A stretch of DNA of 64,000 nt from Thunnus maccoyii. Its lineage: Eukaryota > Chordata > Actinopteri > Scombriformes > Scombridae. The notes under the pieces are model-generated. The model was not told where the DNA came from, searched no databases, and saw only the letters and a list, made by a program, of their open reading frames with translations. Below are positions 9,970 through 53,253 of this stretch, in pieces. The stretch spans positions 12,950,001-13,014,000 of the forward strand of contig NC_056555.1 of NCBI RefSeq assembly GCF_910596095.1, written 5' to 3'. Every line of letters begins with the position of its first letter. The stretch's first letter is position 1. The translations under genes and the position numbers were made by a program.

Positions 9970-12078
9970 TCAGACCACAGGGTTCATGGTGATGTTGTGG
10001 ACATTGAGATGTACTCTCATGTTGGATGTTTGGTGAAACGTCTTGTGACAATGAAGACACTGATAGTGAGGTTTCTCTTCTGTATGTGTCCTCATTTGTT
10101 TGCTCAGTGTTGTGTTGGACACAAATATAGTGTCTCCCCTGTGTGGTATCTCCAGTGTACAATGTGGTGAAACTCTTTCTGCATTCCCATTGATGAAGCT
10201 TCTCCCTGTGTGTGAGTGCATGAATGTTTCAGCAGGTCAACTGAGCAATAAAAGGACATACCATATGTGCAAGTGAGTGCACAAGTGAGAATTTAAGATT
10301 TGGTTTAGTAAGAAACTTCTGCAGCAGTGCAAGCAGATGAATCTCTTTTCTCCAGTGTGATACAGCAGATGAACTTTAAGGTTGCCCTGGACCTTAAATG
10401 TCTTATCACACAGGCTCCAGCAAAACAGCCCCTCACTAGTGTGAACACTGCTGTGTCGCTTCACATTTGACAGCCAGCTAAATGCCCTTCCACACTGAGG
10501 GCATGTGTGTTTTTGGTTCTTCTATGAACATTCATGTTTACGTCTAGCTGAATCTTTTTCTCGTTACTCTTTTCACACAGAAAACACTGAAAGGTGTCTT
10601 CTGCAGAGTGAACAACGTGACGCTGCTTCAGATTTTTCTCACAATTTTTGGCCTTTTCAAAGAGTGAAAACAGTGATGTCCTTTCAAGAGTTTCAGAGAT
10701 TTGAACATCTTCCCAAATTCCTGGCAGGTCACTGAAGAGAGGGGTTTTGGGTTCGTGCTGAGTGGTAGGAAGACGTTGGCTCTGCTCCCTGTAGACCACT
10801 GTATCAAGCCCTCTCTCAATGGCTCCTTGTTTCTACTCTGATCCAGATGTCACTTCACTCATGCCACTGAGCTTTCTGAGCATCTGGATTGCTGGATGGC
10901 GGCTTCACCAGCTGTTTCTGCCACAAGAGTTAGTCATGAATTCGCTCAACAGCATCTACACGCCAAGTAGACGATCCAGTCACTGCTATGTGCTTTCAAG
11001 GAAGAGACAGGTGTAATGATAAAATGATTAGTCGATTAACCAATTAGTGGATTGACAGAAAATGAAACAACAGCTATTTAGATGATTGATGCCAGACATT
11101 TGCTGGTTCCACCTTCTCAAGTTTGAGTATTTGCTGCCTTTCTTTGCTTAAAAATAAACAGTGTAAATTGAATTTCTTTGGGTTCTGACATATTTTTATC
11201 AGCCACACCTGCAAAGAAATCATCATGGACTCCTGATAATTTTACTTTTTTCTGAAATTTTATATAGACCAAACAATTAATGAAAAAAATAGTCAGCAGT
11301 TTAATCTTTAATGAAATAGCAACTGTAAGGGAGGCCTCCATGTCATGTTGGAGTTACCATAAATATCAGTTTCTAACACCTGAGCCATAATTACAACTGG
11401 AAAACTGATTTTGCTCAAAGTTCTGATATCTGACTCGGTGATACAGATGTGCCTAAAAACAAAACAAAACAAACCAAAGTCCATCATTCAAGGCAATTAA
11501 AACCAAATTTAATGGATATAGTTTAATCCTCACTCAAACAACTCTGCAATTACACATTGTAAACATGGGAATCTTTCTCATCTGCACCATCCATCCCCTA
11601 TGACATGAATGCAACATGAGATGCCTTAGTAAAGATTCCACAGCGTCATGCTCCAGCTGTGATATGCTAAAATAACGTCAGAGTTGAGAACATGCGGTCA
11701 CATCTGATAAACTATACTTAAAACCAGTTGGAAGACTTGCAACAACATCATATTTATTACCTGATTAACCATTTCCAGCACTGACCTGCATTTAAACTGC
11801 TTTTCCCAACACAAGGCAAACATAGTGACCACAGTATCCCTGCATCAAGCCATTTATACCAAACAGGGGCACTGGAAGAAGAGTCAGGCCATGTGTTACA
11901 TATTTATGTAGTTGTTGCCTACATCATGTTGACACTACAGTCGATTCCTCGCTTCAGTGTCTTCTGTTCTTAATTTCTTGTCCCTGTTTTGTTTCTCATC
12001 CATTATATGATTGACTTGATCTTCACATGTCACTGACGTTTGTTGACATGCGATTGTGGACAGGATGGTGTCTGACAT
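9970..12078 (-). pseudogene. Copy D: decayed TIN2-like/C2H2 gene (linker exon plus finger exon)
   Basis: Fourth and most decayed member of the minus-strand cluster. The linker exon is recognisable at about 12089-11935: ATG at 12078 opens [10 protein letters not shown], close to gene A and gene B, but a stop follows 47 codons later at 11935. The finger exon starts after an acceptor at 10917 with ETAGEAAIQQSRCS, homologous to gene A, and hits a stop at 10861-10859. Downstream, finger remnants appear in shifting frames (a CLHCCRSF finger near 10330, and a nearly intact last finger CLHCHKTFHQTSNMRVH near 10030). The exon is shorter than the 944-nt finger exons of A and B, so fingers were lost. 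No TIN2-like exons were found for this copy. It might instead be the 3' part of copy C with a duplicated linker exon. Confidence 0.75.
11016..11345. mobile_element. Degenerate fragment of MITE family 2 (CTGCAACTAA...)
   Basis: The phrases GATTAGTCGATTAACCAATTAG and the later TTCTCAAGTTTGAGTATTTG match the family found repeatedly between 29.9 and 37.2 kb. It lies in the region between linker and finger exons of copy D. Confidence 0.5.
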
Positions 12079-12389
12079 GGACAATTGTCCTGATGAAGAG
12101 GAAATCGTTCATTCAGGATGACCGAGACAGCATGGACAAGTCTCTAGACTGTGTTGTTGCATTGCTTGTAAAATGCTGGATAAATATTTGGTCCTTCAAG
12201 TAAAGTTTGTGTTCTAGTCTGTTTAGTGTAATGAATATTTTTAACACTCAACCTTCACCTTGTTTCAGGTTGAGAGTAAAGTGCAAATTTTCCACTGTGT
12301 GTTTTTCAGCTCATCCTAGAGTTAATCCATTTGACTGTGAAGCTTTCTACGATCACCAAAACAGTTAGCAGACAGCAAAAAAAAAAACT

Positions 12390-13254: not shown

Positions 13255-14813
13255 TTAAGAGTGTTGAGCTAGTGTTGTAGTGTCACCTGCCACACCAGTG
13301 TCTTCACAATACGGAGAGGAAGCAAGAGGTGACAGCCCACTCTCCCGCAGCTGTGAGTTTGATGGATCACTGGAACTGTCGTCAGTCTCTTCATCACTGC
13401 TGTCGCCACCTTTCCCACTTATTATACTATCAATGTGATCTTCTGATGCCACTGACGTCTGCTTAGATGCAAGTGTGGATAAAATAGTGTCTGACTTGAG
13501 GGAGAACTCACATGAAATAGAAAACCTTCATGTTAGAGGCAGAATTCTTCAAAGAGAGAGATGATGATTGACAGTAATGGATACAAACAAATCAAATCTC
13601 ATCATTTTTGTGCAATCTAAATTCATCAATTATTGTGACAGTTTAGATCAGAAGTAGATATAAACCAAAGCATTAAACTGAATTAAAAAAAAAAAAACAT
13701 CAGTAAAAATGGGCTGATTAGTGCATTATTACTATAGTCTTTTACAAAATGCCAAATGTAACAGGCTTTTACTTTTAGTCAACTTTTGTCGCTGTTTCTG
13801 ATGCTGCAGAATCTTCTTCAGATCCTCATGATCAGAGACAAACTGCTCAAAATGGAAGTCAAAGGAAGACAGGTCAAACATGGAGGACACCTGGAAAAGT
13901 GGAAAAGAGTGGAGAGATGTTCAATTAAGAAGTTCCTATGATTTTTCAATTTTAAAATGTTCAGCACCTATTTTGAAGATTACTCCTGACCGTGTGGGTC
14001 TGTATTTATAATTGTGTGGACACAGGAGTACCGATAATAAACAGCAATGTCCAAGTCTTGATGGGAAGTTAACCACATATTTCACAACCAGAGCCAACCA
14101 CCACTTTCACTGTGATTTTCACACAGTTTTTATCAAGATTTCTTTAGGAAGTAGTGGTTACTGGAGTCCTGCCTTCAAATTTTAGCACCTGCAGATCTGT
14201 CTCTTGGTACAGGATGACTCCAGATGCACAATAAAAATCTTTTTTTACATAACACAGGACATTTGAACAATGACAAGACATAATTCGATGGTTAGGCACT
14301 TTTTTTTCATCCTCCTGCCAAACTTTGAAAAACTTCAGACAGAAACTTCTAGTCGGCAGAGGAACTCCCACAAAAGGATCTGTAACACTGTATCGAAACA
14401 GGGTCTGTCAGTAGTGACAGACTTGTGTGCCATGTCCTATACACAGTTCATTAAAAGAGAGCTGTGTGTTGAACGCCGGTGGGCTTATGTCACACCTATA
14501 TTAGCTCTGGGTTCATTTTTGACTCACGTTTTCACCACTGATATAAAAAAATCAAGATATGTACTTGGTTACTCATAAGAACACCTAATTTCCACATCCA
14601 CTTCACTCACCTGAGATCTTAGTCCCAGGATCAGCTGAGTCCTCTGCTTGTAGTTCATGAGCTCGGGGACCATCTCTGTCACCAACGTGATGAATTCAGC
14701 CAGTTTTCCATATTGTTCCACGTTTCGCTCCAGGGCCACCTGCCACATACAGGCTGACATCAACCTTAGTGGGGGAACTAGGAGGCACAGGGATAACAGA
14801 GGAAGATGAGGAT
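13255..14813 (-). pseudogene. Copy C: decayed TIN2-like gene, exons deleted
   Basis: Four exons of the family are recognisable in order. The first TIN2-like exon (14813-14611, 203 nt) is intact and almost identical to that of gene A ([19 protein letters not shown]). The second and third exons are missing: the sequence jumps from the exon 4 homology (about 14412-14340) to the intron upstream of exon 2, so one deletion removed both. The exon 4 remnant breaks soon after [13 protein letters not shown]. Exon 5 (13890-13773, 118 nt) is intact. The linker exon (about 13511-13255) has lost its acceptor AG, its ATG is changed and it ends in unrelated sequence. No finger exon follows directly. I infer a non-functional copy, though the intact pieces could still donate sequence by conversion. 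Confidence 0.8.
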
Positions 14814-17499: not shown

Positions 17500-20400
17500 T
17501 TGCAAGACAAGTTCCCTGCCAGAACCCCACTCTCCATCAAGAAGATGGGACAGTGTATCGTGAAAACCCCAAAGTTTATTACCGTAATTCTGAAATATCT
17601 ATAATTGAGTATCTTAAGAGATAAAATAAAGCAGCATTTAAAATCTCTAGTCAACACATTAGGGGTGGCTGGTTCAATTCCCCCGGCTTTTCCTGCCCAT
17701 GTGTCAAAGTGTCCTTGAGCAAGACACTGAACCCCATGTTGCTCCCGATGGTCAGGCCAGCACCTTGCATGGAAGCTCTGCCACCATCAGTGTGTGTGTG
17801 TGTATGCATGGGTAAATGAGAGGCAAAAATTGTAAAGCGCTTTGTCCGATAAGGTACAAGGGTATAACACAAAACCTTATGCTCTTTAATAATATAGTCC
17901 CCACAAAACATGAGGTGTGTTTACATTCACTACAACGTGTAATATTTCAGTATCCCAAGTCTGTATTTACATACACATTGAGACATACATGTTGTTAGTA
18001 ATTTACTGATATAAAAATGCACTATTGTCATCTATTACTTAAGATACAGTGCACATGAAAACAACCTGTCGCTAAAAACCTCCACAACAGCATGCTAGAC
18101 AGTCCTGTGGACTTTGAGGTGTATCTTCATGTTAGATTTTTGTGAAAACGTCTTGTGACACGTTGAACACTGGTGAGGTTTCTCTCCCGTGTGCGTCCTC
18201 ATGTGTTTCTTCAGTCCTGAACTACAGTGAAAGGATTTGTCACATTGTGAGCAAGGATATGGCCTCTCTCCTGTGTGGTACCTACGATGTACTATTAGCT
18301 GTGCAGCTGAGACGAAACTTTTTCCGCAGGATTCACACTGATGAGGCCGCTCCCCCGTGTGAGTTCGTGAATGCACCAGCAGGGCGCCGGAGCTACAGAA
18401 AGACATACCACAGGTGCTGCACAGATACGGCTTCTCTTTCATATGCATCCTGAGATGAACAGTGCGCGGATATGGCTGTGTGAATTTCTTGTCGCAAAAA
18501 GTACAGGCATACGGGCGTTCACCAGTGTGAATGCGCATGTGGGACTTCAAAACTGATTTTGTCAGGAACCTCTTGTTGCAGTACGAGCAGGGGAATGGCC
18601 TTTCTCCATTATGACGTCGCAGATGAACTGTAAGCGAAGAGTGAAACCTAAATTTCTTCTCACAAAGGCTGCAAGCGAAGGACAGCCCTCCAGAGTTAGA
18701 GTGAATAAGGAAATGCTGATTGAGATCTTTAGGACTTTTATATGTCTTTTCGCACTGAGTGCACTTGAAAGGTCGCTCCGAAGAGTGAACGGAACAATGT
18801 TTTTTTAATTTGGAACGAGATGCGAAAGTCTTGCCACACTCCAGGCAGGTGTTTTTATTGGCTCTTATGGCGTCCTCCCTGAACGGAGGGGAGACATCAG
18901 ATCTGCCTTCTGTTGAGGACTTGATCGTGCTCTCTTCTGATGGCTCCTTGTTTCTACTCAGTTCCAGATGTTCCTTTGCTCCTTTCATTGACCTTTTTGA
19001 GCATCTAGGTTGCTGGAAGGAGGCTTCACCAACTGTTTCTGCCAACAGGAAACAAGAGACTTAAATGACCCATAGAACAGTGAACAGAGTTTATTCACCA
19101 TTGTGAAAATGATTAAATGAAAATCACCAATAGCAAGAAGCAACAATAACAACATTAGTATAAGAGATATCAGAGATGCTCACCACTGTCACTTGCTGCA
19201 CCACCTTCTTCAGAACAAGGAGAAGAAGTGAGTGGTGACAGTCCACAGTCCTGCGGCCGAGTGTATGGATTAACTTCACTGGAACTGTCGTCAGTCTCTT
19301 CATCACTGCTGTCACCACCTTTCCCACTTATTATACTATCAATGTGATCTTCTGATGCCACTGATGTCTGCTTAGATGCAAGTGTGGATAAAATAGTGTC
19401 CGACATGAAGGAGAACTCACCTGAAACAGAAAACCTTCATGTTAGAGGCAGATTTCCATGTAAAGAGTGATACTGATTGACAGTAATGGATACAAACAAA
19501 TCAAATCTCATCATTTTTGTAACAGATTAGATCAGAAGTAGGTAATCAGTAAAAGTGGGCTGATTAGTGCATTATTACTATAGTCTTTTACAAAATGCCA
19601 AATGTAAACAGGCTTTTACTTTTAGTCAACTTTTGTCGCTGTTTCTGATGCTGCAGAATCTTCTTCAGATCCTCATGATCAGAGACAAACTGCTCAAAAT
19701 GGAAGTCAAAGGAAGACAGGTCAAACATGGAGGACACCTGGAAAAGTGGAAAAGAGTGGAGAGATGTTCAATACAAAGGTTCCTATGAATTTTCAATTTT
19801 AAAATATTCAGAACCTATTTGAAGATTACTCCTGACCATGTGGGTCTGTATTCATAATTGTGTGGACACAGGAGTACCAATAATAAACAGCAATGTCCAA
19901 GACTTGATGGGAAGTTAACCAAATATTTTACACCCAGAGCCAACCACCACTTTCACTGTGATTTTCACTATTTTTTTTCCCCAACATTTCTATAGGAAGT
20001 AGTGGTTACTGGTGTCCTGCTGTGATGTTTTAGCACCTGCAGAGCTGTCTCCTGGTACAGGTTGAATCCAGAAGCACAATAAAAACCTTTTTTTTTTTTT
20101 TACATCATACAGGACATGTGACTGGTTATCTACCAAGATGAAGAGACATAATTCGATGGTGCCTGCTTCCTACCTTTGAAAAACTTGGTATTGAGAGGAA
20201 TTCTTCTAGTCGGTAGAGGAACTCCCACAAGAGGATCTGCAACACTGTATCGAAACGGGGTCCATACAGGTCTGGGAACACATCCTTGGACAAGAAAAAA
20301 ATAGCATTAATGAATTAGAGAACATACATATACCGTACACATATATGCAGTAGATGAACAGTAAGTTAATGTACAGAATGAAGAATGACACAGGTAATAA

Positions 20401-21800
20401 CTGAAGCAGAACTCACCTTGAGAAATTTATCCTTTTCATATTTGTCACGGAGTAACGTTTGAACCAGCTCCACAAATGCTGACTTTGATATCTCCACTTC
20501 TCCATCTTCATCCTGCCATGAAGCCCAGAAGAGGTTCATTTTCATAAATATATGATCAGTTTTCCATTCAAGTCTTTCTCCTATCAAATCAATTCATCTA
20601 TAAAATGCCAATAGACTACACTGCCATATTGGGAGGCTGGCCTATTGTATCCAACACTCACAAGAGGAATGGCATATAAATTATCTTTATTCGTCTGCCA
20701 GCTGCAAAGCTAAAGCTTTAGTCTAGAGATTGTTAAATAATCATAAAAGATTGATGACCTTTGTCACATTCATGGCAGTGTGTCCTTACGTCAGACACAA
20801 GGATTTCTCACCTCTTCCACCTTGCAATTTGTTGTGCCGTTTTGGAAAATGTTGAGCTGTTCCTGGATAGCATCACAGTCAATGGGATCCACCTTCTTTA
20901 GAAATTCCAAGATGACCTGAAAAACACAAAATTTGCATTTAAACCTATGTTCAGTGGTGACAGACTCAGGTAACATATGTGCAATGTCCTACATGCAGTT
21001 CATTAAAATACTGAATGAACAGGCAATGCATCTTTCAGTATTAGCTACATGTAGCACTTCATGGATATCACTGAATACCTAGGAAAGAATCCTTTAGTTC
21101 ATGTCAAGTCATAAATACACATTCAGTTTTTGCTTGTTGGCTCTTTTTTATATCAGCAATTTTATTGATGGGGAGACAGTGCAGAATAGAACAATTGACT
21201 TGATAAGAGCAGCATAAGACTAGAAGAACACAAGATAGCAAAACAAAACCCCAACCAATCTCCCCTACGGGCTTTCCCCTCATGAAAACACATACTTAAA
21301 AAACTTTCTCAAAAAGAAAACAGACAAAAAAAAAAAAAAAACAGAATAAAATTGTGGTTCTGATATTTGCATTTGTGGACCAGGCTTCAGTACTGTCCGT
21401 TCTTCAGACCTTGACGCATGAAAAATTAAAAAATGGCAGTGAGCAGGCAGAAAGCTGTGTAGGCTTATGTCACAATTATATTAGCTCTGGGCTCATTTAC
21501 AACTCAGTTTTCGCCACTGATAAAATAAATGAAAATCAATATATGTACTTGGTTAATCATAAAAACGTCTAATTTCCACATCCACTTCACTCACCCGAGA
21601 TCTTAGTCCCAGGATCAGCTGAGTCCTCTGCTTGTAGTTCATGAGCTCGGGGACCATCTCTGTCACCAACGTGATGAATTCAGCTAGTTTTCCATATTGT
21701 TCCACGTTTCGCTCCAGGGCCACCTGCCACATACAGGCTGACATCAACCTTAGTGGGGGAACCAGGAGGCGCAGGGATGACAGAGGAAGATGAGAATCTG
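17500..21800. repeat. Tandem segmental duplication, unit A (partner 25.38-29.70 kb)
   Basis: This block aligns with 25.38-29.70 kb in the same order: 3' flank, finger exon, linker exon, then the TIN2-like exons. The flanks past the stop codons still match (phrases such as TTTACTGATATAAAAATGCAC and TTACTTAAGATACAGT), so the duplication is not confined to exons. The finger-exon end is far more similar between units than the TIN2-like end; see the conversion finding. Confidence 0.8.
17575..17580 (-). terminator. Possible polyadenylation signal of gene A
   Basis: AATAAA on the minus strand, 515 bp past the gene A stop. The matching site in gene B lies 513 bp past its stop within conserved flanking sequence. 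That equivalence supports a shared 3' untranslated region. Confidence 0.35.
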
Positions 21801-23385: not shown

Positions 23386-23389
23386 CAAA

Positions 23390-39100: not shown

Positions 39101-42100
39101 TCCAGTCATCCACTGTGAAATGTATTTCTTAGCCTACTGAAATGGTTTCTGCCTACAGATAACCGATACCCCCTGCCAGTGTGGATAAGGCACCAACAGA
39201 CAGCTGTCCTCTATCTCTGACATAGGTATTGAAATTAGTTCCCAAAATCTACACGCACCATCCAAGCCTTGCTTAGGGAACCAAATTCAGCCTGGCTTCT
39301 ATAATCACCGGCTGTCATTAAACCACTACCAACGGGCTTATTTAGTCAGGAATCCTAACAGCAGGGGTCACAACAAAGTGTATTGGTGCAAATAGGTGTT
39401 GGAGGTTTGAAAGTACTCCAAGATGGCCTTCTAACAGGTCATCTCTGGAGGAGGCCCACTCTGTCGGTCGAGGGCTCTCGCCCGGTTTTATTGGGCAGCT
39501 TCAGAGCCCTTTCAGAGTTTAGCCAATTAAGTCCATACTAATAAATCTTTCACTCAATTCTGTACTGAAATCATACCTCATTTACAGCAGTAAATTATCC
39601 TCAGTCACTAAATCTGAACCATTAATTAATTTAATAAACAGTATTAATTTTACCTTTGCAAAATTCAATATAATTTATAATCTAAACAATTTCAAAACTA
39701 ATGTCAGCCTATCCCATAGAAGACGTCTTTGCTCACCTTAAAGGAACACCAGAGGACCTCAGAGATGAGCACAAGTCAGGGACTTTGGTTGGAGTGTATA
39801 AAAATACAAACCAGTTTTATTTGGTTTTACAAAAAAAGCAATCTAAGAATGCAAAAAGTAAAATACAAAAAACTTAAGCAAAAAATTAAAAAGCTAAAAG
39901 ACTAAAGAGAGTCTCAAAGAGATCCCTCAAAACGCCCTGAGGAAAAAAGGGGTCCCGCAAAAAGAAAAAAAGGAACCGGACCCCGAGCCTCTCTTGACTT
40001 TTCATTTTATAACTCTACACCTTCCTCTCACTTGTATTACCACATATCATCTATCTCCAGGACATCTATCAGTTTCATGCTGATGTTACATGACTTTACA
40101 CAGAATATTAACCTTTTCTTTATCTGTCACTTACATCAGACTACATGGAATTTTTCAACTTCTTCTATTTTACATTTGACATTAAAATCAAGGGATGTCT
40201 GCAAGGTGCAGAAATCCACAGCTTCTCCTTTGCCTCAGATTATCTGAAGGTTTCCTAAGTTTTTGATGTTTGTGGTCGTTTTAGTCATCCTTGATGTTTC
40301 AGATCTAGTTCAGTACACGTTGCACAAGTTGTTTAAATCCCCGCAAATGGTTCAAGACATTAAACTATGTTTAATATGTCACCAATTAAAATTAAATAAG
40401 ATGGTCAGAAGTAGGCTTGAGTAGAGTCTCGGCCATATATAGTGCAACTTTCAACACTACCTCAAGCGTTTGGTCTTGTTTCCCCTCCTGAGAAGTGGTT
40501 TAGAAACTGCTACACTTCCTCTGGGACCACTACAAGACAGCCTTCTTTTGACAGTACTTTTGCTGATTGGAGTCTTGCGTTCTTTATTTAGCAAATTTTG
40601 TATCTGTGATGAAGTTGCTTTTCTATCTCTCAGGGAACTTGATGTATTGATCTTCTGATGGTGTGGTCACTTTTGGTCTCCCTGATCGTGCTTTAGATAC
40701 AACTGATCCAGTTTCTGCAAAGCGTTTTAGAGTTCCATGCACTGCCCCCTCAAAAAACCTTTAGTTTAGCCATAATTTGACACTGAGAAAGCCCCTCTTT
40801 GCTTAGAATAACAGTCTGACATCTGACACTTTCACTTAGTTGTGATGCCATGTTTTCCACTATCACAATGCTACTTAGTAAGCAATGATCTTCTGGAAAC
40901 TTGAGGCACAGCCATATTTATAACAAGTGAACACTGGCTGCAAGTTGAGTTTATTGAACGAGCCTCTGATGAGTAGATCAAATCCACCTGAGTGTTATCT
41001 GAACACATGCTTCAATGGAAGGGAATGAAATGGAACTTTCTGATTATTTCCACATTTACATGAAAATATTAGAGATTTTCAGTGTGATCTCAGCCTTTTA
41101 GACCCCACTGTATATCTGTATTTATTTCATAGTAGCAGCAGGTAATACATAAAAATCATAGTCTAACATAGTTTAGCAATGTTCAATTTACAATTCAAGT
41201 CACATAGAAAAGAATCCCTCGATAGCCGTAGTCCAGTGTCACACCAGCTGGTTCATAAGTCAGGGCTGTTTAAGTGTATAGTGTGTCTTTTGTGTTTGTG
41301 TACAACCAGCTGGTTCTGGAGATGTGTCGAGGCGAGCACCCAATGGACATGCAAACCATTCAGCCACATCTGGACAGAATTAAAGCTCCTGTTAGCACAG
41401 CCAAAGATCACCATGTAAGTAAACTGTGACTGGATAAGTTTGCTTTGAGTCTCATGACTGTCAGGGTTGTTGAAACTGTTAAAAACTTGTGTTTAATGTT
41501 ATGAATGAACTGTTTTTTTCTTGAATTTGTATTCTTTTCCAATGAAAGAAACTATAGAAAAAGTAGTTTACTGTAGGTGTGGCTCGTGTGAGCAACTGTT
41601 GTTTGTTTCATTGCCTTGTTTCAAGAATTTCTTTGTTCATATTCACATGTTTGTGTGTGTATATCAGGTCACCATTAACCAGGTGGAGGAATCTGAGGTG
41701 AACTTTGTGGAGTTGGTGCATTCATTACTAGAGGATCCTTCTGACAGAAAATATTTTTTCCAGGTGAGACGACGCTCACTCCTCTAAATGATCATTTACA
41801 CATTAAACTAACAAAAGATTCAAGATATTATCATGGAAACTCCCCAGTAATGTACCATCAGGCATATTGTATATCTCGCAAGGTTTAAGTAAGACAGGCA
41901 CTTTTAGGCTTTGGTATTGATATAACACAATACTGGTCTGAAAGAGTCATCTCATCTGCAGAGATACACGTTCAAATGAAGTATAAAACACAAAATTGGA
42001 CTGAATATCGTAGAGTTTCCTCAGATCTTCTGGGAAAGGTCAATATTTATGCCTGTAGAGATGTTGCAACTTCTGTTGCTTGGGAACATGTTTGAGGACG

Positions 42101-45100
42101 GCTGCCCAGAAAGGGCCTTTGTTTCAGTCTTAAAGTTTAACATCACTCCAGGTAATGCCGGTTTTTGTGATCTGATTTTTGGTTTAGAGTTGTGTGTGGA
42201 TAGAGAGAGTGGACCAGAGAGGGACTGATCTTAACAAATGCAAAACATTTTAGAGTTTTGAGTAGTTTTCTTAGTAAGAAAATCATTCTAACATTCACAA
42301 CAGATGGTGGTGAATCAAACTGGTAACTGCAGGTGTGACAGTAACAAAAATTATCAAGAACCTGATCTGCAGCATTACAGAAGTTCCATTTTTGGAAGCA
42401 TTTGCGCCAAACATAATACTCAACATGAGAGAAACACTGGTACCTGCTGCAAGCTGCAAGCTGCAAGTGCAGTGAGGATACTGTACATCAGGAAAATGAA
42501 ACGACCCCTCAACAAACATACGCTGCAACAATGAGCTCACTGGGACAGGGCAGTTTTCCAATAACACATCTTAAATTATACTTTATTTAAGATGTATCTC
42601 TTTCTTAATCTGTCTATTCCTGTTTTTTATTTTTCTGTCTTTTTCTACTTGCAGGACATCTTTCCTGTGTACTTTGGCTCAAAGTACGATGCAGCCCTTG
42701 AGATGCTTGTGTGGGAGTTTATTTCAAGGCTGGAGGAGCTGCTGCCAGTTCCAGACTTCACACAGGTGCCATATTTCTTATTGAATTCAGTCCTGGCACA
42801 CCGTTATCAACCAATCCTTACAATAATAATAATAATAATAATAATAATGTATGTGAGGGAAGGAGGGTTTGTTGTTCTAGAGAGGAGGATGCTTACCTGT
42901 TACAAGGACAACATTCACATAATGGCAATGTTTTGGCTACTGTTATATCCTTGTTATGTTCTCTGCCCACTACAGTGTTGATGTGGAATGAACAGCTAGC
43001 TGGGGAGGTTATTAAGCTGCGAGGAAGGTCTGCACTCCCTTGTTGTAAGCCAAATGCAACAATCACTATGTATCAACGGGAAATAGGCTCTGGCATTATT
43101 CCAAACTGAGCAACCTTTTCAGGTGGCACATGGGCTCAGTGCAGGGACTCATCTGTCTGCACCACTGACCTAGAGACAGGGTTAACTGGGCGCAGGTGCA
43201 ACTCAGTGTCCCAATGGATAGCCTCCTCCTCTCCCTCTTTGCTCAACCAAGCTGTTGCACAAGAACAAAAACAATACAGAGAAATGGTTTCAATATCCTT
43301 AAGCAGCTACTGTTTTGTAGGTTGACACATTACCCCTCACCATATCAACTTATTTAAACTCAGTTTGGGACATTTGGCAATTTAAATAAAAGTAAATGCA
43401 CAATAAATTACTTCAGGATTAACAAATCTAGCAATGTGTTCTCTCTTCTCAGTTGGCAGCTTTACTTGGAGACACTCCGTCATTACTAGACAACTGTTTA
43501 CAATCCTTTTTCCCGCCAGAGGACATGAAGACAATACTTGAACACCACAGAAACCTTGGTCATTTTGGAGAAAAAGGTACTGTAGGTTTCAGTTTTTTCT
43601 CAGTTGATTGTTAAGTTTACTCATTGTAAAGCATTACTATTAAAACATTTCTAAGAGAGAGTGAACATGCATGGACAAGCATGAGTTTAGACATGTTTGA
43701 CAGTTGCATGATTTATGTTTGCACCAATCTGGGGCTTAATGAACCATTTTTCCTCTCAAATTTAGATCCTAGATTATTACCGATGGATGACTGCATCCTC
43801 TCCTCCCTGTCCCTTCCTCCTGTGACCAAACCTGTCATGAACACTACCTCCTGCTCACCTGCTCTCAAAGACTCAACCCCTCCAGAGTGCAAAGGACATC
43901 CCGGTGCGCCCAACAACACGAGCAGCCTGGAGAGGGCGATCAGGGGGGGCTCTGAGACAATCAGACAGAGACTGAGGGAAACGGGGGACTCGGGCAGCTG
44001 GCAGCTACAGGTTAGAGGCGGAAACTGTAGCATTTCTCAGGAGAGGAAAGTGCAAAACTCAATTAACACACGTCCATGCGATGAAACTATAGACCTCACT
44101 ACATCTAATGAGACAGCGGGCACGGACTCAGCAGCCAATGAGAACAGCCAAAGCTTCAGAGGAGAGCGGGTTCCCAGGAAGAGGAAGCTTAGCGGAGGTG
44201 TAGACATTCCCACAAAGCAGCCTATGGAGGCATCAGCTTTCTTGTAAGATTACCATAAATGTCTATTTGTTACATACAGTGGGAGTTCCCATTGGTTCAA
44301 GTGGGTAGGCATTTGTTGCAGTTGATGTGTGTTACTCCATATGCGTCTTGTCATTTAATCATCTGAAAATACTAATTTATCTCCTGTGTTAAGTGCACAT
44401 TCATTCCATCTCTTTACATTCCTCATATATCATATTGTTTCTGAATTACAGCATGTTCGTTTCCAACCACAATACAAGTACTACAAACGCTTCCAAGCTA
44501 ATTGTTGGAGATTACAAAGTGATGAGATATCACTACGATTGAATTGGAAAATGGTGTGTAAGCCAACATGACATGTTTATCTGTGACATATTTTTCACCT
44601 TTGCAGGGATTCTTCTGTGGATGATGAGAATTCAGATGAGTCTCCTCTAATCTCAATATGGGGAGAATATACAGGTTTGTACAACTTCTAAGTGGATCAA
44701 TGGATATTCGCCTCTGTCTAACCTCAGGCCTTTGACTAACTCTTCACATTTCATTTTAGACTCTCAGGAAGGTTCTTTCCCAGTTGTAACTGACTCAAAA
44801 GTTCCCTGGTCGGACGAGGAGACGCTCAATCTGCTCGACATTTGGGGGAAGGACTCGGTACAGCGGGCTTTGAAGGGCTGCTTGAAGAACCGTCATATAT
44901 TCACTCAGATCGCACAGAAGATGGCAGAGAGGGGCTACATGAGAACAGTTCAACAGTGCCAGACCAGGATCAAACGACTGAAGAAATGCTTCCGAAAGAA
45001 CAACAGGTGGGTATTAAATGACAAGGTTTTTGTAGCTTTTTTCCTGTCTTCCTGCTTGTCTTTCTGTCCAGTAACTTCATTTTGTCAGATAATTCATTTT

Positions 45101-48100
45101 AGCCTTCATGACTGTGGGGGAAAAAAAGCAATTCAAGCAAAAAAAAATGTTGCATTTTCCCTGATCTAACACCAGAGGGAACTCCAGGTTGGAGTATAAA
45201 TATTACGAGCAGCTGGAGCGAGTACTTGGCTCCTCAGCTTCCTCGGCTGTTCCTGAGGTCACCTACGATGTTGAAGAAGTCATTGATGAAGATGAGTCCC
45301 AGGACGACGATGAGGATTTGCAGTTCCTGGGCCACACGAGTCGACAGGAAATCGGTATGATGTCACCATTCTGTGAGTTAATCAAACCACGGCGTCATCA
45401 GTGGTGTTAGATGTTTTATAACTTGAGCCTTAACTTTAAATTCTCTTTTTTTTGAGTTTATATTATTTGATTAAAAATTCAGACGCAGAGCAGACATTAT
45501 AGATTGTTTAGGTGATGTTAAAAGTTTTCTACAAGGCTGTATCCAAACTACTTTACATGTCAATAATCATATATCAGATGAACTTAATATGAATAGATAA
45601 AAGGAACAATACATTTACAAAATAATGAAACAAAATGCATCACCACAAACTACATCCTGTACTCTAAAACTACATTAATTCAACTCAACTTTCAAACAAA
45701 CTCAACAAAAACTGAACATTAGTGGGTAAAAAATGCTGTAATTAATTAACATTTTTTTTATGTTTGTTTAAGGAACTAGAAGCGTTCCCTGGACAGACTT
45801 TGAGACGTTGGCCCTCATCAACACATGGGGTGAAGACAAGATTCAACAGGAGCTGAGAGGAATGCACAGAACCGGGCAAGTTTTTTCCATCATATCCAAC
45901 CAGATGGCTGCCCAAGGATTCTCCCGAACACCCGAGCAGTGCCAAACGAGGCTGAAGAGGCTGAAATCAAGTTTCAGGCAGTGCTACGAAAACAAGTATG
46001 TGTGCTTAGAGCAGAAAATAATAAAAGGAAAAGTTCAGGATTTTTGCTGATATATCCTCTCATCCCCAAACATCAGCATGAAGGGACTGGAGCAAGTTCA
46101 GTGCAAGTTTTACGATGAACTGGCAAGAATTTTAGTGAAGGACCTCCCTTCAGTGCCGCAGTTGGATGAAACACCAGGAGAGGCTGAAGACGACGACAAC
46201 GACTTTCCTGCCTACTCCCATCAGGATATCGGTAAACTCAAATGTTCTCTACCAACTGTAGGGGTTTTGGGAAGAGAGTTCAGATTAACCAACTGTGGCA
46301 TTTTTACTTTCCCTACACTGCATCATCTTGCCCTCTAATGTCTATACACTGACCAATCACAGTGTGTCCCTGAAATCTAGCAAAAAGCAGCACAATCTAA
46401 CGAGCATAAAAAGTTTTCCAACTTCGACTCAAGTTATAGTCGAAGCCTTTAATGAGAAACTGCTGCTTTTAAATAGTGATTCATTGGGTTTAAGATGCTG
46501 GTTTTAACATATTTTATTTTTTGACATGGACCTACACTTTGAGATTTTTAACCTCACCTAACCTATAGACACAAAAATGTGCATCTATATTTTGTCCTCT
46601 TGTTGTCTGTCTTCTATTACTTAGCACTAGACACAATTTTCCACATTGTAAATCTCTAAATTCCTAACTAACTAAAGTGGGATTAGACACTGCTACACCA
46701 GTCAATCCAAAAAGACGAGTAGCGCTGTTCAGTGTATTTCTGCCAAATTTCTCATCAACATAATTTAAACTGCTGAAGTGAATCATGTGCTCCAGTATCT
46801 TCTTTGGATGCAGTTTTTGAGAAGTGGCCCATTGAACTGTTTGTAATAATTTAAAACCACTTTCAAGATGATCAGTGTAAATGCTAGATTGTATCTCTTG
46901 GCTCATCTAATTACTGCATTTGAACCAAATTTATTGTCATAAAAATAATAATACATACAAGTGATTAATTATAACTGTACTGTGATGTATTGTTTGATAG
47001 AAATATACATGTCAACTTTGTCACAAAACCTGTTTGGCTCGGCATCATGGCATATACAAAAAAAAATACAATAAAAGCAGTGTGGCCAACACAAAACAAG
47101 ACAGTGAAATGTAAAATTAGTAAAATGTGTAGATGGTCGGAGTCAACTCAGTTGTCAAATGAAGTGTGAAACCATCCATTCAGATTTTTTCTCTCCTTTA
47201 TCTTTATTTCTTCAGAGTCCGCTGTGGGCATTCAGGAGGACAGGAAGAAAGTCCCCTGGTCCGACAAAGAGACCATCATCCTTTTGGAGATTTGGGGAGA
47301 CCCACAGGTAGAGCAGACTGATATCAATCAATCAGACTGAACTGCCATTTCATTTGACTTCATTATTGCACTTCACAATTTGAATCACCAAAGAATAAAT
47401 TAAAGATTCAGCGGTCTGGAACCTCATCACGCTTTTTTTTCCAGACGTTCAAAAGCAAGGTGAAACTAATATGAATTTCACCCACATTTAGGTCCAGCAG
47501 AACCTGAGACGTTACCCACACAACGGTCACCTTTTCACAGAAATATCAGAGAAACTCTGCGCCAATGGCTACCCTCGCAGTGCAGAGCAGTGCCACACCA
47601 GAATCAAACGGCTGAAATCCAGCTATCGCCAGTGTCAGGAAAGCATGAGGTAAACACTGCACGTGAATATTCATCTTGTATGCTGTACTGTTGACAGCGT
47701 GTTTGTGTGTCTGTTTAAGTCCTTTTTAATACCTGACTTTACCGTCTGTAGCTCATCTGGGACTGTCGATTTTAAATTCTACGATTTGCTGGAACAAATC
47801 CTGGACAAGCAGCCATCGACATCTTCCACCGTGGTAACAGACTCCATTGAAATATCCGAAGACTCCAATGGTGAATCAGTGTCTGAAACAGGTAAAATAT
47901 CCCCTCATCTCTTCAGTGCAGTTTACAGCACAGCAGCAATACTCAAGATTTCTTCCAATTTAAACGTTTGTAATGTTTTCTTTCAAGTAGTATAAATACA
48001 AACAAACAACAAAAAGACATTATTTTGCTCCAGCTTATAAAATTTGAGGATTTGCTGTCTACTTCTTTGTTATATCATTGTAAATTAAATATCTTTTGTG

Positions 48101-51100
48101 GTTTGGACTGTTTGTCAGAAAAAACAAGCAGTTTGAAGACGTTACTTTGGGCTCAGGACATTTTTAATTATTTTCTGACACTTTATTGAAAAATTAATCT
48201 TTTATTGATTATGACAATAGGTTCATTCATTCATGCTCCTATGAGGTTGCTCAAGTGTTTCAGAATTTGCAGAGGAGCTACGAGTTGTATGCTAAGGTTT
48301 ACTTTAGGTTTTTTTAGGTGTCATATATAATTTTTTTTTATTCACTATTGTAAGATTTCAGTTACTTTTTTTCTGTAAAGCAATTACTAGCGTGTAAAAG
48401 CAATGGGAGAAAATCGTGGTGAGGAATTTCAGGAATTATATACAGTAAAAAATAAAAATGGTCAGTACACCTACAATAATCATAAGAAGCTTATGTATGG
48501 ATAACTCATGGACTGTTCACGTCACGTAATAGGCTTATGTGATGTTGTGTGCAATTTTGAGCATTTTCAATTATGAATGGAATCACTGTACTTACAATAC
48601 ACATGCTGAGTTATAAATGTTACTGTATGGGAGTGAATGGGTCTCCCATACACTTAAAGCCCATGAAACCTTTTCCGACCATGTGACAATTACGATATAA
48701 TGGTAAATGCTAAAATATAGTGTAAGAATAGCACAAGTAGAAAAGAGTAACACAGCAGTATCTGTCTCAAGTTAGCTAACAGTAATTAACTTTGGCCACG
48801 AAAGCTACTGGTCATACCAGACCAAGTGGTGCACATTATTGATGTTTAATTCATTTTTTCATTTGTAAGAGGAGAAATGTGTTATTTCTTGTGAGAAAGA
48901 GTGGATTTAATGCTTACATAACACATAATTACTCACAAAATGTATTTGTTATCTCATGTAGAGTTGATCCACGTGCTGTACAAAGCATTTTTAAATTAAG
49001 AGAAATAGCAACCATTGTATTTTTATGCTTCACTGTATTGGAATTTGCTGCATAATAGGAAATGTAATAGTATAGCCAAATCAACTTTACTGGCTGAAAC
49101 TACAGTAACTTGTGAAATAGTGCATTCGTACCAAAACCAGTGCTGACACGCGTTGTGTCTCGACTGTAAGATGGAGAAATCAACATGTCTGCAGATAAAC
49201 CAGCACCCGGCTCGTGGTCAGATGAGGAGACCCTGGCGCTTATCGATATCTGGGGCGAAGAAGAAGTTCAGAGGGCGCTTAGGGGTTTTGTCCACAACGG
49301 GCACGTTTATGCCGACATTTCAGAGAAAATGCACGACCTCGGATACACGAAAACCCCGGAGCAGTGCCGCTGGAAAGTCAAGTCACTGAGGAACAACTTT
49401 CGGCAGTGCTACGACAGGAAGAAGTGAGATCTATCTTTCTTTCTGTTTGCCTTATTGTTTGCAAATATAATCAAGTAAAACCAACTAATAGCCCTTGTTA
49501 CAACTTTTCACTCTTTCTAGATGTGGAAGAAGAGTAGATTATAGGTTCTACAACCAGCTGGAACAAATACTCGGACCGGAGGCGGTTTCTGTTGATGAGT
49601 ACGATGAAAGAGACGAACAACCAGAACAGGATCCAGGTACAGTCAACATCCTTTCACACATTCGCACAGCAGAAAAAGAAATGCTCTATTTGATAAGTAT
49701 TCTGCTGCATCTGCCAGCAATAGGAACAGACAGTGTGAACACAGTATGGACGGAGCAGGAGACGGCGGCTCTCGTTGAGGTCTGGGCGGCAGATGACGTG
49801 CAGCACAGCCTGAAAACCTGCGTCCGTAATGGGCACATATTCATCGACATATCGGAGAAGATGGCCGCCATGGGATACATGAGGACAGCGGAGCAGTGTC
49901 ACTCCAGGATCAAAAGGCTGAAGAAGACTTACAGGCGGTTCTGCAACAGCCGGAGGTAAATAAAATGGAGGAGTGATTGTTTGAGAGACATTTTATTCCA
50001 AATTTTAGTAAAGGTTTCTTCAATTGGTTATCAGAAAACCATCAAAAGGCTGTCAGAGCACTTATCTTAAAATTTTGAAAATGTCCACCACAGCACAGTG
50101 TTTCCAAGCTAACCTTTGATTTATGTTTTCCAGAAGTGGAGGCCGGCCTGCAGTGTTTCGATACTTCGACCTCCTTGCTCCGGTGCTTGGTGACAACTCT
50201 GTGTTTGCCGATGTGGACGGCACTGCTGCTGACGCCACCTTGCAAACCCTTATGGACAAGGATCCTAACATGTGTAGGTTTAAATACAATCAAATCCACT
50301 TAATGAGTGAAATTTGTGTCATTATGCTTTTAAACACCCAATAGTAAAGCTGTTGTTCCTCCTTTTAGTTGAGCAGCCCTCAACCAGCCACCTTCTGTCC
50401 GACCTGAGCAGAAAGACGCCCTGGTCGGACCAGGAGACTCGCACGCTGCTGGAGATCTGGGGTGAAGATAGTGTCCAGCTCACCTTGAAGGGCTGCCTGA
50501 AGAACCGCCACGTGTTTGAGTACATCTCTGAGAAGATGGGTGACCAAGGATATATAAGGACCTCAGAGCAGTGCTACACCCGCATCAAGCGCCTTAAGCA
50601 CGGCTTCCTCCATGAAAAGTCAGTAATGACACAATTATGTCTTCTTCTAAATAAAAGTATCAATTCTATTATTTCTATTTTGTATTTAATAGCCATTTTG
50701 GTTGGTTATATGTCAGACACCTCTGCACATGGTCGAACTTTATGGTAATATAAAGCATTTGAGAAAATCTTTTCTACAAATGATTTTTGATAAAATGTTG
50801 TCAAAATCTTTGGGAAAAACCCTCTTAGCCTGTTTTGGAGGTGTACGATTGAAAATGCATCTCAAACTAAATTTGTTATTTACAGGATATGGAAAATCAT
50901 ACATGTGATATTTTCAAAATGTAAAGGAAAATGATTATTATGCACTTATTATTTTGCACAAAGTAATGTTAAGCATGGCTGCAAGAAGGTCTGCATTAAA
51001 TGTCTTACACAGGCTTCACCCAATTTTATCAATATGCTGCAGCGTTTCCCTCGTAGCATCAGTCCTGACACTTTGAGGCCTTGATAAAGTTTTGATGTGA

Positions 51101-53253
51101 TCCTGAGCAAATCATAGGATGTTTGATTTTGACCAATGAACATTACTCTCTGTGTAGTTTATCATGGAAAATGTTTGTGATTAGCTTTGCCAGCTAATCG
51201 CCAGGCTACATATTCAAATGCGAGGTCACTGGTGGTAACTGTTTTTTTGTCTTCTTTACCCACAGAGAGGAATATAAATTCTTCAGTGAGATGGAGAAAA
51301 TCTTCAGGAAGGAGTTGAAAGTTGACGGACCAGTCGCAGACACGTCGATCATAGATGAACCGGATGAAGGCACCCTTGAACTGAGCCAAAAGAAAGGTGA
51401 AACAAAAAGAAAAATTCACAACGGCAAGGTTGCATGTATAAACATTTAGTTGCAGGACTGAAATGTTTGAAATTAAAAAATCCTCAGTTTTTTCTAATCT
51501 TTAGGTCATTTAGCCAACTCTTGTGAATTGGATTATTAAGTGAATGTAAAATTTGTACAGTGTTGATATTTGGCATCTAAGCTCTGACTTTGTCACTCCC
51601 CACAAAAAACACCAACCTTAGCAGAGCAAGGACTGGGGAGTGATGATAGCAACATTTTAGACATTTAAATGAGTTCCTGAAAAGTGATTTTGCTTTTGGC
51701 CAACCAAAATAATTCCCCCTTTTTTTTTACCAAATGAGTACAGTGTAAATAAACCTGGGTAGCTTTTCTAATTATCATAATAAATGCCAAATACTGTAAA
51801 GATAATGTTTTTTATTCTGTGAACTCTATCTACTTTGTCAGCTGGCTCAAGTAACCCGTGGATGTCCGATAGCTCTAAGCTACCCTGGAGCGATGGGGAA
51901 ACCGAGGTCCTCCTGGAAATTTGGGGGAGCGAGGAGATTCAGGAGAACTTGAAAGGCTGCACCAAGAACAAACACATCTTCATCCAGATCTCTGAGGTCA
52001 TGGCCAGCCAGGGCTACCTGCGCACTCCTGAGCAGTGTCAAACGAGGATAAAGAGGCTGAGGGCCAATTTCCGACACTTCCTAGAAGGCAGAAAGTAAGC
52101 ATGTTTGTATGTTGTTGGGGGATGACCAGGAAGCACAATGACAATGTTGGAGTCTGAACATTCACAAATAAATACAGTTTTATTCTCTAAACATGTTTCA
52201 AACCTCATAATATTTGATCTACTGCTGTTGCTGTAATTTGTGGCATAATTTTCTGTCCCCTTATAAAAAGCTCTGAAATTCTGTCTCATGTTTCCAGAGG
52301 AGAGAAACAGGAATGCAAGTTCTTTGACCAGTTGGTGCAGATATTTGGCAGCAAGTATGTAACCTCTGACCCGCAGGCCGAGGATACAGCCAATGTCGTA
52401 GGTAAGAAAGCACACTGTCTGTCATGTCAGAGATTTTCCATCTTTAGACAGTAGCTTTAACAATAATGCCTGACGTAGTAAGCTATGACAGTTCATAGTA
52501 TAGCAGTATCTCTGGTCCAATTCCTATTTCAAAAGTTAGATGTCATGTCACAGCTACTTTGAGGATTTATTGTCTTTATTGTATTTTTATTTTTTAGTTG
52601 AACACTGTATACTGCACTGTGTACACATTGCAGAAATGTTGGTACTGTTTTCGCTTTAGCACTATTATTATATTACTACTAAAGCAACAACCATTACAGG
52701 AATAGTTTGACATTTTGGGAGCAGCTGGTTAGCTTAGCGTAGCACAAAGACTGAAAACAGGGGGAAACAGCTAGCGTAGCTCTGTCCAAATGTAACAAAA
52801 AACGCCTACCAGCACCTCTAACGCTTACTAACATGTTATATCCCTAACCCATTCAAAAACCGAAGTTAAAAAAAAACATTTCTTGGTTTTACAGAGAATT
52901 GTGTGGTGTTGTTTCTACACTTCTGTGTTTTTGTATAAAGTAAATAAACTAAATATAAAGTGTTAATTAGGGAATTTTAGAGGTGCTAGTAGGCAGATTT
53001 TGCTAACGTTGGACAGACTCAAGCTAGCTGTTTCCAGTTTGTATGCAAAGCTAAGCTAACCGGCTTCTCGCTCTAGCTACATAGTTAGTGTGGAGACTAG
53101 AGAGTCTACCAATCTTCTCATATAACTATTTCTCTCTCATTTCCCTGGCTAAAAAAAATATAGTGCAGCAAAGTAGCTAGCTGCTATCCGGCTCTTTGAA
53201 ATACACAATTTAACGTCTAAAATTTGCTTTCTCTCTCTGATTCAGAGTCTTGA
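36103..53253 (+). CDS. TIN2-like (TRFH) protein with seven tandem trihelix (Myb/SANT-like) modules
   Basis: Exons: 36103-36142 (proposed start, MEIKRGTETGSGG), 37952-38154, 41310-41414, 41668-41763, 42655-42765, 43453-43576, 43766-44243, 44607-44674, 44760-45006, 45176-45354, 45773-45995, 46077-46231, 47216-47307, 47492-47649, 47752-47891, 49171-49423, 49521-49636, 49724-49955, 50134-50273, 50369-50618, 51266-51396, 51842-52094, 52298-52401, 53246-53253. All phases agree, giving about 1301 residues. Residues ~14-226 form the TIN2 N-terminal, TRFH-like domain (LRLLATPLQLFSAAMWQVV; WEFISRLEELLPVP). Residues ~227-408 are a linker with a PRKRKL nuclear signal and a SUMO-binding-like ETIDLT. Residues ~409-1299 hold seven trihelix domains like those of ZSCAN20/ZSCAN29. 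I infer a nuclear multivalent DNA-binding protein. The last exon adds only two residues. The first exon is the least certain part; an ATG at 49185 could start a shorter transcript. Confidence 0.84.
36238..36258. repeat. AAT trinucleotide microsatellite
   Basis: About seven repeats in the proposed first intron of the plus-strand gene. Confidence 0.88.
36988..37235. mobile_element. MITE family 2 copy
   Basis: Begins AGGGCTGCAGCTAATGG and ends ATCATTGCAGCTCTA; the interior matches the family (TTGAGAAGCTGAAACCAG). It lies in the proposed first intron of the plus-strand gene. Confidence 0.72.
38456..41111 (-). mobile_element. Tc1-like transposon remnant, interrupted
   Basis: On the minus strand, 38865-38527 encodes the Tc1 transposase C-terminal part (QQGNDPKHTS, PPQSPDLNSIEHLLG, ending EAKGGHT). 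Homology continues in broken frames to about 39130. The N-terminal region is at about 40850-40600 (MASQLSESVRCQTV, RFAETGSVVSKARSGRPK), with frameshifts and stops. About 1.1 kb of unrelated sequence at roughly 39135-40240 sits between the halves. The element is dead and lies in the intron between the first two TIN2-like exons of the plus-strand gene, in opposite orientation. The outer edges are approximate. Confidence 0.75.
39135..40240. mobile_element. Unclassified sequence inserted in the Tc1 remnant
   Basis: It separates the transposase halves and shows no Tc1 homology. The segment near 39.79-39.95 kb is A-rich. No long frame or LTR-like ends were recognised, so its class is unknown and its limits are approximate. 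Confidence 0.4.
42821..42848. repeat. AAT trinucleotide microsatellite
   Basis: About nine repeats, within an intron of the plus-strand gene. Confidence 0.9.
46232..47215. other. Long intron of the plus-strand gene
   Basis: Separates modules 2 and 3. AT-rich; no exon or named repeat seen. Confidence 0.6.
47892..49170. other. Long intron of the plus-strand gene with repeat debris
   Basis: Separates modules 3 and 4. Around 48115-48225 the phrases GTTTGTCAGAAAAAACAAGC, TTTTCTGACACTTTATTG and TTGATTATGAC recall MITE family 2 but are too decayed to be sure. It is long enough to hold an internal promoter for a transcript starting at the ATG at 49185. Confidence 0.4.
52697..53140. mobile_element. 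Inverted-repeat element, family 1 copy
   Basis: Begins GGAATAGTTTGACATTTTGG, like the element at 6000. Sub-terminal arms pair (GCTTAGCGTAGCACAAAGACTG against the later GTATGCAAAGCTAAGCTAAC; CCAGCACCTCTAACGC against TTTTAGAGGTGCTAGTAGG). It lies in the last intron of the plus-strand gene. Confidence 0.66.

Follow-up and report, generated by a model that had tools for sequence, protein, structure and literature searches.

The analysed window, a stretch of 64,000 nucleotides of Thunnus maccoyii contig NC_056555.1, is best read as holding three genes and a broken copy from a family that encodes predicted sequence-specific DNA-binding proteins with a TIN2-type TRFH domain (Table 1). In the models of two minus-strand genes (A and B), this domain is followed by tandem C2H2 fingers within a single reading frame. 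We consider it rather probable that these genes represent a lineage-expanded transcription-factor family, in which the peptide-docking domain of TIN2 has taken on a new role as a module accompanying DNA-binding domains, much like SCAN, KRAB or ZAD.

The five-exon module can be firmly assigned, from its sequence, to the true TIN2 N-terminal (TRFH) domain. An earlier note on this DNA had proposed a TIN2-like TRFH from motifs alone, together with a profile search of the five-exon translation against the TIN2 N-terminal family. The proposal is borne out, as all three modules match the Pfam family TINF2_N far above its curated cut-off of 29.4 bits (gene B, E 2e-49, 168 bits; gene A, E 2e-45, 155 bits; plus-strand gene, E 2.7e-58, 197 bits) and cover positions 1-148 or 1-149 of the 149 in the profile. 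Moreover, human TIN2 (5xyf_A) is matched by the single sequence of gene B (E 5.3e-12) and by the family profile (E 1.4e-26), and it is the sole significant solved relative of the module. Among Pfam models at E<=0.001, the modules of genes A, B and plus match TINF2_N alone, and no SCAN, KRAB or TRF-family model. This distinguishes them from TRF1/TRF2, which likewise combine a TRFH-fold domain with Myb-class domains; a further difference is that the three Myb units examined here are PF13837. A genome search with PF08558 (TRF-type TRFH) gave zero matches, its controls being equally zero, and therefore carries no information.

In genes A and B, the TRFH exons E1-E5 measure 203, 105, 96, 111 and 118 nt, and in the plus gene 203, 105, 96, 111 and 124 nt, with intron phases 1-0-0-0-0-1 in all three, exactly as previously described. 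Phase-1 introns are found on both sides of the module in the modelled genes, which is the geometry of an exon-shuffling cassette: with such a symmetric exon block, recombination in the flanking introns can join the module in frame to C2H2 or Myb/SANT-like arrays. Genome-wide, the 203-nt first exon is usable in 14 of 18 modelled modules, which exceeds chance, an open-frame acceptor being present at about 6% of eligible lengths; as the 18 modules are paralogs, this figure is descriptive and does not stand for 18 independent trials.

Table 1. Positions in the window of the exons and domains of the TRFH family members.
Feature	Position	Strand	Details
Gene A exon 1, ATG and MADF, phase-0 donor	22225..22539	-	Pfam MADF_DNA_bdg, E 1.1e-16; in-frame splice to 21978
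Gene A exon 2, linker and TRFH E1, 384 nt	21595..21978	-	E1 alone, 203 nt, 21797-21595
Gene A TRFH E2, 105 nt	20812..20916	-	
Gene A TRFH E3, 96 nt	20417..20512	-	
Gene A TRFH E4, 111 nt	20174..20284	-	
Gene A TRFH E5, 118 nt, phase-1 exit	19620..19737	-	
Gene A E6, linker, motif SDTILSTL	19184..19420	-	
Gene A last exon, nine C2H2 fingers and stop	18095..19038	-	Pfam zf-H2C2_2 / zf-C2H2
Gene B TRFH E1, 203 nt, phase-1 entry	29500..29702	-	
Gene B TRFH E2, 105 nt	28783..28887	-	
Gene B TRFH E3, 96 nt	28564..28659	-	
Gene B TRFH E4, 111 nt	28322..28432	-	
Gene B TRFH E5, 118 nt	27893..28010	-	
Gene B E6, linker, MPDTILSAL	27170..27475	-	
Gene B last exon, nine C2H2 fingers and stop	26081..27024	-	
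Copy C TRFH E1	14611..14813	-	
Copy C E4 remnant, damaged, contains stop	14323..14403	-	
Copy C TRFH E5	13773..13890	-	Protein identical to that of E5 in gene A
Copy C C2H2 region, decayed	9994..10923	-	
Plus gene TRFH E1, 203 nt	37952..38154	+	
Plus gene TRFH E2, 105 nt	41310..41414	+	
Plus gene TRFH E3, 96 nt	41668..41763	+	
Plus gene TRFH E4, 111 nt	42655..42765	+	
Plus gene TRFH E5, 124 nt	43453..43576	+	
Plus gene E6 (43766-44243) and E7 (44607-44674), linker with MDDCILSSLSLP	43766..44674	+	
Plus gene, seven Myb/SANT-like units	44760..52401	+	Seven by tblastn, three by Pfam
Plus gene terminal coding exon, TGA stop	53246..53253	+	

Splice sites were chosen partly by reading frame, and for the 384-nt exon of gene A the acceptor retained was the one in phase with the MADF exon. 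The resulting model of gene A is unbroken from ATG to stop (769 aa, MADF-TRFH-nine C2H2 fingers). The features announced by the earlier note were recovered in the three genes: an MADF exon upstream of TRFH in gene A (Pfam), C2H2 fingers after the module in A and B (nine each), and DNA-binding repeats after the module of the plus gene. The latter forms an unbroken chain of 23 exons from E1, with TRFH followed by seven Myb/SANT-like units (tblastn), each made of a Myb exon and a linker exon, the Myb exon of unit three being split in two. The three of these seven units given to Pfam are all Myb_DNA-bind_4 (PF13837), and position 53253, given as the end by the earlier note, is the final base of the stop codon. 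The first coding exons of gene B and of the plus gene were not found. Copy C does hold a partial module, with E1, a damaged E4 and E5; its E2 and E3 were looked for and not found, and its three C2H2 matches each lie in different short frames. Mosaic exchange was observed among A, B and C. In these predicted genes, the described arrangement is confirmed exon by exon. That the module heads DNA-binding domains of three kinds finds support in gene models that are continuous and consistent in phase, and in the TRFH-finger pairs present at 13 further loci beyond the window.

The family had been taken as local, but TINF2_N matches occur genome-wide, at 20 loci (our grouping) on six contigs. C2H2 fingers lie downstream in the same orientation at 16 of them, including the decayed ones of copy C and the 13 outside the window, each of the latter having at least 8 finger matches downstream (counted as matches, not as spliced models). 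Copy C aside, the fingers are in one open frame at 13 of 15 finger loci, and in two frames at C20:24.419M and C23:5.79M. One of the 16, C23:12.717M, can be read as Myb x4-TRFH-C2H2 x8, the joins being in phase 1 as far as the module. Across 11 scanned regions, all 147 finger matches counted share the strand of the finger-bearing modules and none lies opposite; the count omits one stop-containing match (window position 25763, plus strand). An artefactual joining of separate genes was rejected as the main reading because the frames are continuous in two genes (A from its ATG, the plus gene from E1) and TRFH is followed by fingers at 16 of the 20 loci.

Two loci were considered with regard to shelterin TIN2 itself. 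One candidate, C22:15.37M, has a TINF2_N domain and no finger match within 9.9 kb downstream, but the stretch searched there contains no TRFH-binding motif. The alternative, C5:27.46M, carries a diverged, finger-less tinf2-like gene for which a model with identical intron phases could be built; its exon matches are weak (E 0.009 and 0.063) and reach 75 bits after splicing. The sole TPP1/acd match is on the same contig, 4.9 Mb away. The C5 gene shows no TRFH-binding motif in its long final exon, the pattern occurring only inside E1 and in stretches not counted as exons. In a tree, human TIN2 and the C5 gene fall outside the remaining 17 modules; support for this is weak (83/89), the bootstrap had not settled, and a warning of long branches applies.

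What the sequence shows is the homology, the structure of exons and phases, the in-frame linkage of the modelled exons, the pairing across the genome and the low dN/dS; expression, partner, DNA target and effect of a repurposed TIN2 domain are our inference. Binding sites on DNA would be selected by the fingers or Myb units; the TRFH domain would dock short peptides as in TIN2 and bring in a cofactor. Its partners would be other than TPP1/TRF2, in which case, we propose, the proteins would regulate transcription or chromatin without being part of shelterin. A more specific scenario, to which we give somewhat less than even chances, is that exon shuffling joined the five-exon TIN2 TRFH cassette, on either of its sides, to C2H2 and Myb/SANT-like arrays, that the MADF exon of one gene came from a PIF/Harbinger-type transposon, and that a class of TRFH-guided chromatin regulators resulted, with the groove recruiting new peptide ligands. 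The MADF exon of gene A would have been gained by another route than phase-1 module shuffling; the likeness of the linker behind it to a transposon exon 2 is only suggestive, 29 of 500 shuffles scoring equally well.

Of the two functions previously suggested, the repurposed domain fits the evidence and the telomere-associated factor finds no support beyond homology. Accessory shelterin proteins, in which TRFH would still bind TPP1/TRF2 and the DNA-binding domains would target TTAGGG-like sites, telomeric or internal, are in our opinion the least probable explanation. True TIN2 homology speaks for them, as do the contact residues: F152/E153 of human TIN2 are required for TPP1 and TRF2 binding (PMC8262337), and W/E stands at the equivalent positions of A, B, plus and four other fish modules, so that A, B and plus could, on sequence, still bind TPP1. 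However, the aromatic residue and E are not retained in 11 of 18 fish modules (the diverged C5 gene among the 11), and the TRFH-binding motif [FY]-x-L-x-P is absent from the A, B and plus models, a weak test since the C5 last exon and the C22 stretch lack it too. The plus-gene Myb units examined (three of seven) are of PF13837 type, which we take to differ from the TRF telobox type. Furthermore, three zebrafish TIN2 homologues with a common N-domain and different C-termini have been cloned from cDNA and, in the part of that source available, TPP1 is bound by zfTIN2-1 only, the two other paralogs failing to do so (PMC3032778).

Two other readings borrow from known zinc-finger families. A SCAN/ZAD-like pairing, with TRFH modules dimerising mutually and combining the DNA specificities of family members, appears unlikely. 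The position of the domain and the growth of the family resemble those of SCAN/ZAD genes, and homodimers are formed by the TRFH domains of both TRF1 and TRF2, but the TRFH of TIN2, the nearest relative, is described as binding peptides, namely those of TPP1 and TRF2 (PMC7617103), and this known docking points more to cofactor recruitment than to pairing. Silencing of transposable elements in the manner of KRAB/FiNZ, with TRFH recruiting a repressor, would be a sub-case of the repurposed-domain explanation, and we judge it less likely still. It would agree with the many C2H2 paralogs and the mosaic exchange among A, B and C, and knock-down of FiNZ-ZNF derepresses LTR elements in zebrafish (PMC10547256). 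Nevertheless, only 16 finger loci are present here vs. roughly 700 zebrafish FiNZ genes (PMC10547256), and one study, as far as its available text goes, reports no significant correlation of FiNZ with transposon expression (PMC11603059). In addition, A and B fingers differ at 3 of 36 contact sites vs. 9 of 153 other finger sites; contact residues thus show no excess of changes, and no arms race over target sites is apparent in that pair.

By sequence, the domain is the same as that of TIN2 (TINF2; PDB 5xyf; Pfam PF14973). To our knowledge TIN2 has no DNA-binding domain, whereas the A, B and plus proteins have MADF, C2H2 or Myb (PF13837) units. As in the SCAN-, KRAB-, ZAD- and FiNZ-zinc-finger families, a protein domain precedes tandem C2H2 fingers, and lineage-specific expansion and clustered copies are seen, but here the domain is the unrelated TIN2 TRFH, spread over five exons and joined also to Myb/SANT-like and MADF domains. 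A near analogue is ZSCAN20/29, which combines SCAN, Myb-like and C2H2 domains. TIN2 also differs by its TRFH-binding motif (PMC7617103), missing from the A, B and plus models. Zebrafish zfTIN2-2 and zfTIN2-3, cloned from a cDNA library, similarly have a TIN2-like N-domain and other C-termini (PMC3032778), and their membership of the present family is a guess.

Among the matches listed for shelterin evolution, TIN2 TRFH structure, fish finger families and Harbinger/MADF, in literature covering few subscription journals and as far as the available text of the sources goes, we found no account of a TRFH-DNA-binding fusion. With the same coverage of few subscription journals, no paper naming TINF2_N, PF14973 or IPR029400 was found. 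Associated domains shape much of the function of zinc-finger proteins, and few are known. If the TIN2 docking domain is one of them, shelterin evolution would be tied to that of transcription factors, fish "TIN2 homologues" might turn out to have no place at telomeres, and for mapping the ligands of the TIN2 groove the paralogs would serve as natural variants.

Finally, the dN/dS ratios, all point estimates, are well below 1. Among 8 further module pairs, dS was saturated in five and 2.4 in one, and a usable ratio was therefore obtained from two only (0.20 and 0.27). Between A and B, the ratio is about 0.27 for TRFH and 0.26 for the fingers.

Four copies of a five-exon module (E1 to E5) were identified in the window by translation and self-comparison, three on the minus strand (genes A and B, and copy C) and one on the plus strand (the plus gene). 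An earlier note had described this module as a TIN2-like TRFH domain, and its anatomy was recovered as described there. The exons measure 203, 105, 96, 111 and 118 nt in A and B and 203, 105, 96, 111 and 124 nt in the plus gene, with the same intron phases (1-0-0-0-0-1) in all three. Copy C holds a partial module, in which E1, a stop-bearing E4 remnant and E5 are retained and E2 and E3 were not found; its finger region is decayed. Once spliced, the module reaches 168 bits in B, 155 bits in A and 197 bits in the plus gene against TINF2_N, the Pfam model of the TIN2 N-terminal (TRFH) domain. All three values are far over the cut-off of 29.4 bits, and the human TIN2 stretch reaches 191 bits in the same test. 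When B alone was compared with all solved chains, the human TIN2 TRFH (5xyf_A) was matched with an E value of 5.3e-12, the next match being at 0.51; with a profile built from 17 modules, these values were 1.4e-26 and 0.32. Identity between human TIN2 and A, B and the plus gene is 23-28% across 162-163 aligned positions. Judged by its sequence, the module is a TIN2 domain, in agreement with the note.

We then searched the 782-Mb genome (54 contigs), in which the window occupies C23:12,950,001-13,014,000, with the TINF2_N profile. At least 35 exon matches were found at E<=0.001 and at least 56 at E<=10, which we grouped into 20 loci (11 on C23, three each on C12 and C20, one each on C5, C22 and C24). 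Two of these loci rest on sub-cut-off matches: the C5 module, which reaches 75 bits when spliced, and C20:24.419M, which is partial and was left unassembled. Five exons were modelled at 18 of the 20 loci, the exceptions being copy C and C20:24.419M. The agreement in phase between models is partly imposed, because the script demanded phase 0 for E2-E4 and, among several E5 donors, the phase-1 one was taken; such a donor was not found at one C20 locus, and at C23:19.29M it lies one base past the end entered for modelling. The 203-nt E1 acceptor, which was not imposed, exists in 14 of the 18 modules (all except C12:7.767M, C12:17.05M, C23:12.706M and C5) and in copy C. E4 is 111 nt long in 16 of the 18.

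The note had also joined the module to DNA-binding exons, and continuous models support this for A, B and the plus gene, the frame of the last being partly guided. The gene A model has eight exons and 769 residues, in the order MADF (Pfam 1.1e-16), linker, TRFH, second linker and nine C2H2 fingers. Its MADF donor, in phase 0, matches the acceptor of a 384-nt exon 2, and the 203-nt form of E1 would require a different first exon. The gene B model runs from E1 to a stop (627 residues, including one codon filled by a placeholder base), and the plus-gene model comprises 23 exons (1280 residues, including one placeholder-completed codon). As the splice sites of the plus chain were chosen by eye with the frame as guide, its open frame counts only in part as independent support; the domain matches and the paralogs do support the predicted linkage in one gene independently. 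The phases of the Myb and linker exons of the plus gene alternate 1-2-1-2, except where an additional intron interrupts the third Myb unit. Its seven Myb/SANT-like units resemble a tandemly duplicated two-exon unit (Myb plus linker exon), and the extra intron of the third lies within the Myb domain.

Coordinates of the features (window positions unless a contig is named)
Feature	Position	Strand	Remark
Gene A model	ATG 22539 to stop ending 18095	minus	
Gene A MADF exon	22225-22539	minus	
Gene A exon 2 acceptor	21978	minus	
Gene A, 3' half	17865-19304	minus	compared with gene B
Gene B, 3' half	25884-27290	minus	compared with gene A
Gene A, near E1	21459-21824	minus	compared with copy C
Copy C, near E1	14479-14840	minus	compared with gene A
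Plus gene, TGA	53253	plus	end of model
Plus gene, Myb/SANT-like units	44760-52401	plus	
Tc1/mariner transposase-like open frame	38527-38910	minus	piece, by eye; in large E1-E2 intron of plus gene
TAACCC-like repeat run	~31240-31275	minus	short, degenerate, by eye; upstream of gene B
C23:12.717M locus	about C23:12,712,396-12,722,543		
C3 MADF match and its neighbourhood	1495-3172 of the C3 stretch examined		transposase fragment

C2H2 fingers stand in line with the module at 16 of the 20 loci, i.e. copy C (decayed) and 15 loci with at least eight finger matches; 13 finger-paired loci lie outside the window. The first finger starts 339 to 2638 nt beyond the modelled E5, and all fingers are in one open frame at 13 of the 15 loci (two frames at C20:24.419M and C23:5.79M). 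In a strand check of 11 regions, all 147 finger matches shared the orientation of the finger-bearing modules, and none had the opposite one. The loci without fingers are the plus gene (Myb instead), C22 (none in the 9.9 kb downstream of the module), C24 (none seen within the 7 kb examined) and C5 (none among the listed frames of the 7.5 kb examined). The TIN2-domain gene at C22:15.36-15.38M, which lacks finger matches and has a Cas/EFS-like SH3 gene (recognised by eye) downstream, is possibly the true tinf2.

The locus C23:12.717M is readable as Myb x4-TRFH-C2H2 x8, with four Myb/SANT-like exons for each of which phase 1 in and out is possible, the first beginning at its ATG. This order differs from that of the plus gene, the Myb units lying ahead of the TRFH, and together with the other loci it indicates that the module can precede, follow or stand between DNA-binding domains. 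We traced how the module connects to DNA-binding exons only in A, B, the plus gene and the upstream side of C23:12.717M; all these joins are in phase 1, bar the phase-0 MADF join of A. The motif (S/C/T)(I/V)L(S/A)(S/T)L was found at the start of E6, the linker exon after the module, at 7 of the 18 loci scanned: gene A (TILSTL), the plus gene (CILSSL), C12:17.05M, C22, C23:5.79M, C23:12.706M and C23:19.29M. The TILSAL of gene B falls outside this pattern. Fish possess other expanded finger families, e.g. FiNZ (PMC10547256). TINF2/TIN2 is not mentioned in the main text of PMC10547256, PMC11603059 or PMC11600626, and a TIN2-domain/finger fusion was not found described in the literature searched; the combination may well have an entry in domain databases.

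The TRFH of TIN2 binds TPP1 and TRF2 peptides (PMC7617103), and pull-down of both is abolished by human TIN2 A15R, F152A or E153A (PMC8262337). At the F152/E153 positions, 7 of the 18 fish modules (A, B and the plus gene among them) have W/E and the rest are otherwise altered; at the A15 position, the modules have M, F, V, L or T. With such changes in contact residues, the groove may have been kept with an altered preference. The [FY]-x-L-x-P motif is absent from A, B and the whole plus model. In zebrafish, three cDNA-cloned TIN2 homologues are reported with a common N-domain and different C-termini, of which zfTIN2-1 alone has the TRFH-binding motif and co-precipitates TPP1 (PMC3032778); these direct data favour a loss of TPP1 binding. 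On this evidence, we favour a module that docks cofactors outside shelterin, a reading that we consider somewhat probable, over rivals in which it serves pairing, transposon silencing or telomere work.

Regarding constraint, dN and dS between A and B are 0.158 and 0.592 in the TRFH and 0.025 and 0.095 in the finger exon, and they are 0.25 and 1.24 for the C12 module pair and 0.25 and 0.91 for the C20 pair, the other six pairs being saturated or nearly so. The ratios of these usable pairs (0.20-0.27), taken without a significance test, look like purifying selection. The 3' halves of A and B are 93% identical (96% across the inner 1.2 kb), for 71-86% in the blocks holding TRFH exons, and A and C are 92.6% identical near E1, for 66-76% in the fingers. 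From this pattern, gene A resembles a mosaic, with its module side near C and its finger side near B, which suggests duplication and putative gene conversion between copies.

Finally, the MADF exon of gene A is matched 18 times elsewhere in the genome. Some of these matches are parts of a single site, and stops are present in 11 of the 18. The best one (64%) lies on C3 in a MADF frame (Pfam 6.6e-13), with a DDE_Tnp_4 transposase fragment in its neighbourhood (E 1.9e-7). PIF/Harbinger elements are described as carrying a transposase and a Myb/MADF gene, with repeated domestication of such pairs in insects (PMC9710019). The MADF exon was likely captured from a PIF/Harbinger-type transposon; that the linker of gene A is also exon 2 of the transposon is only suggestive.
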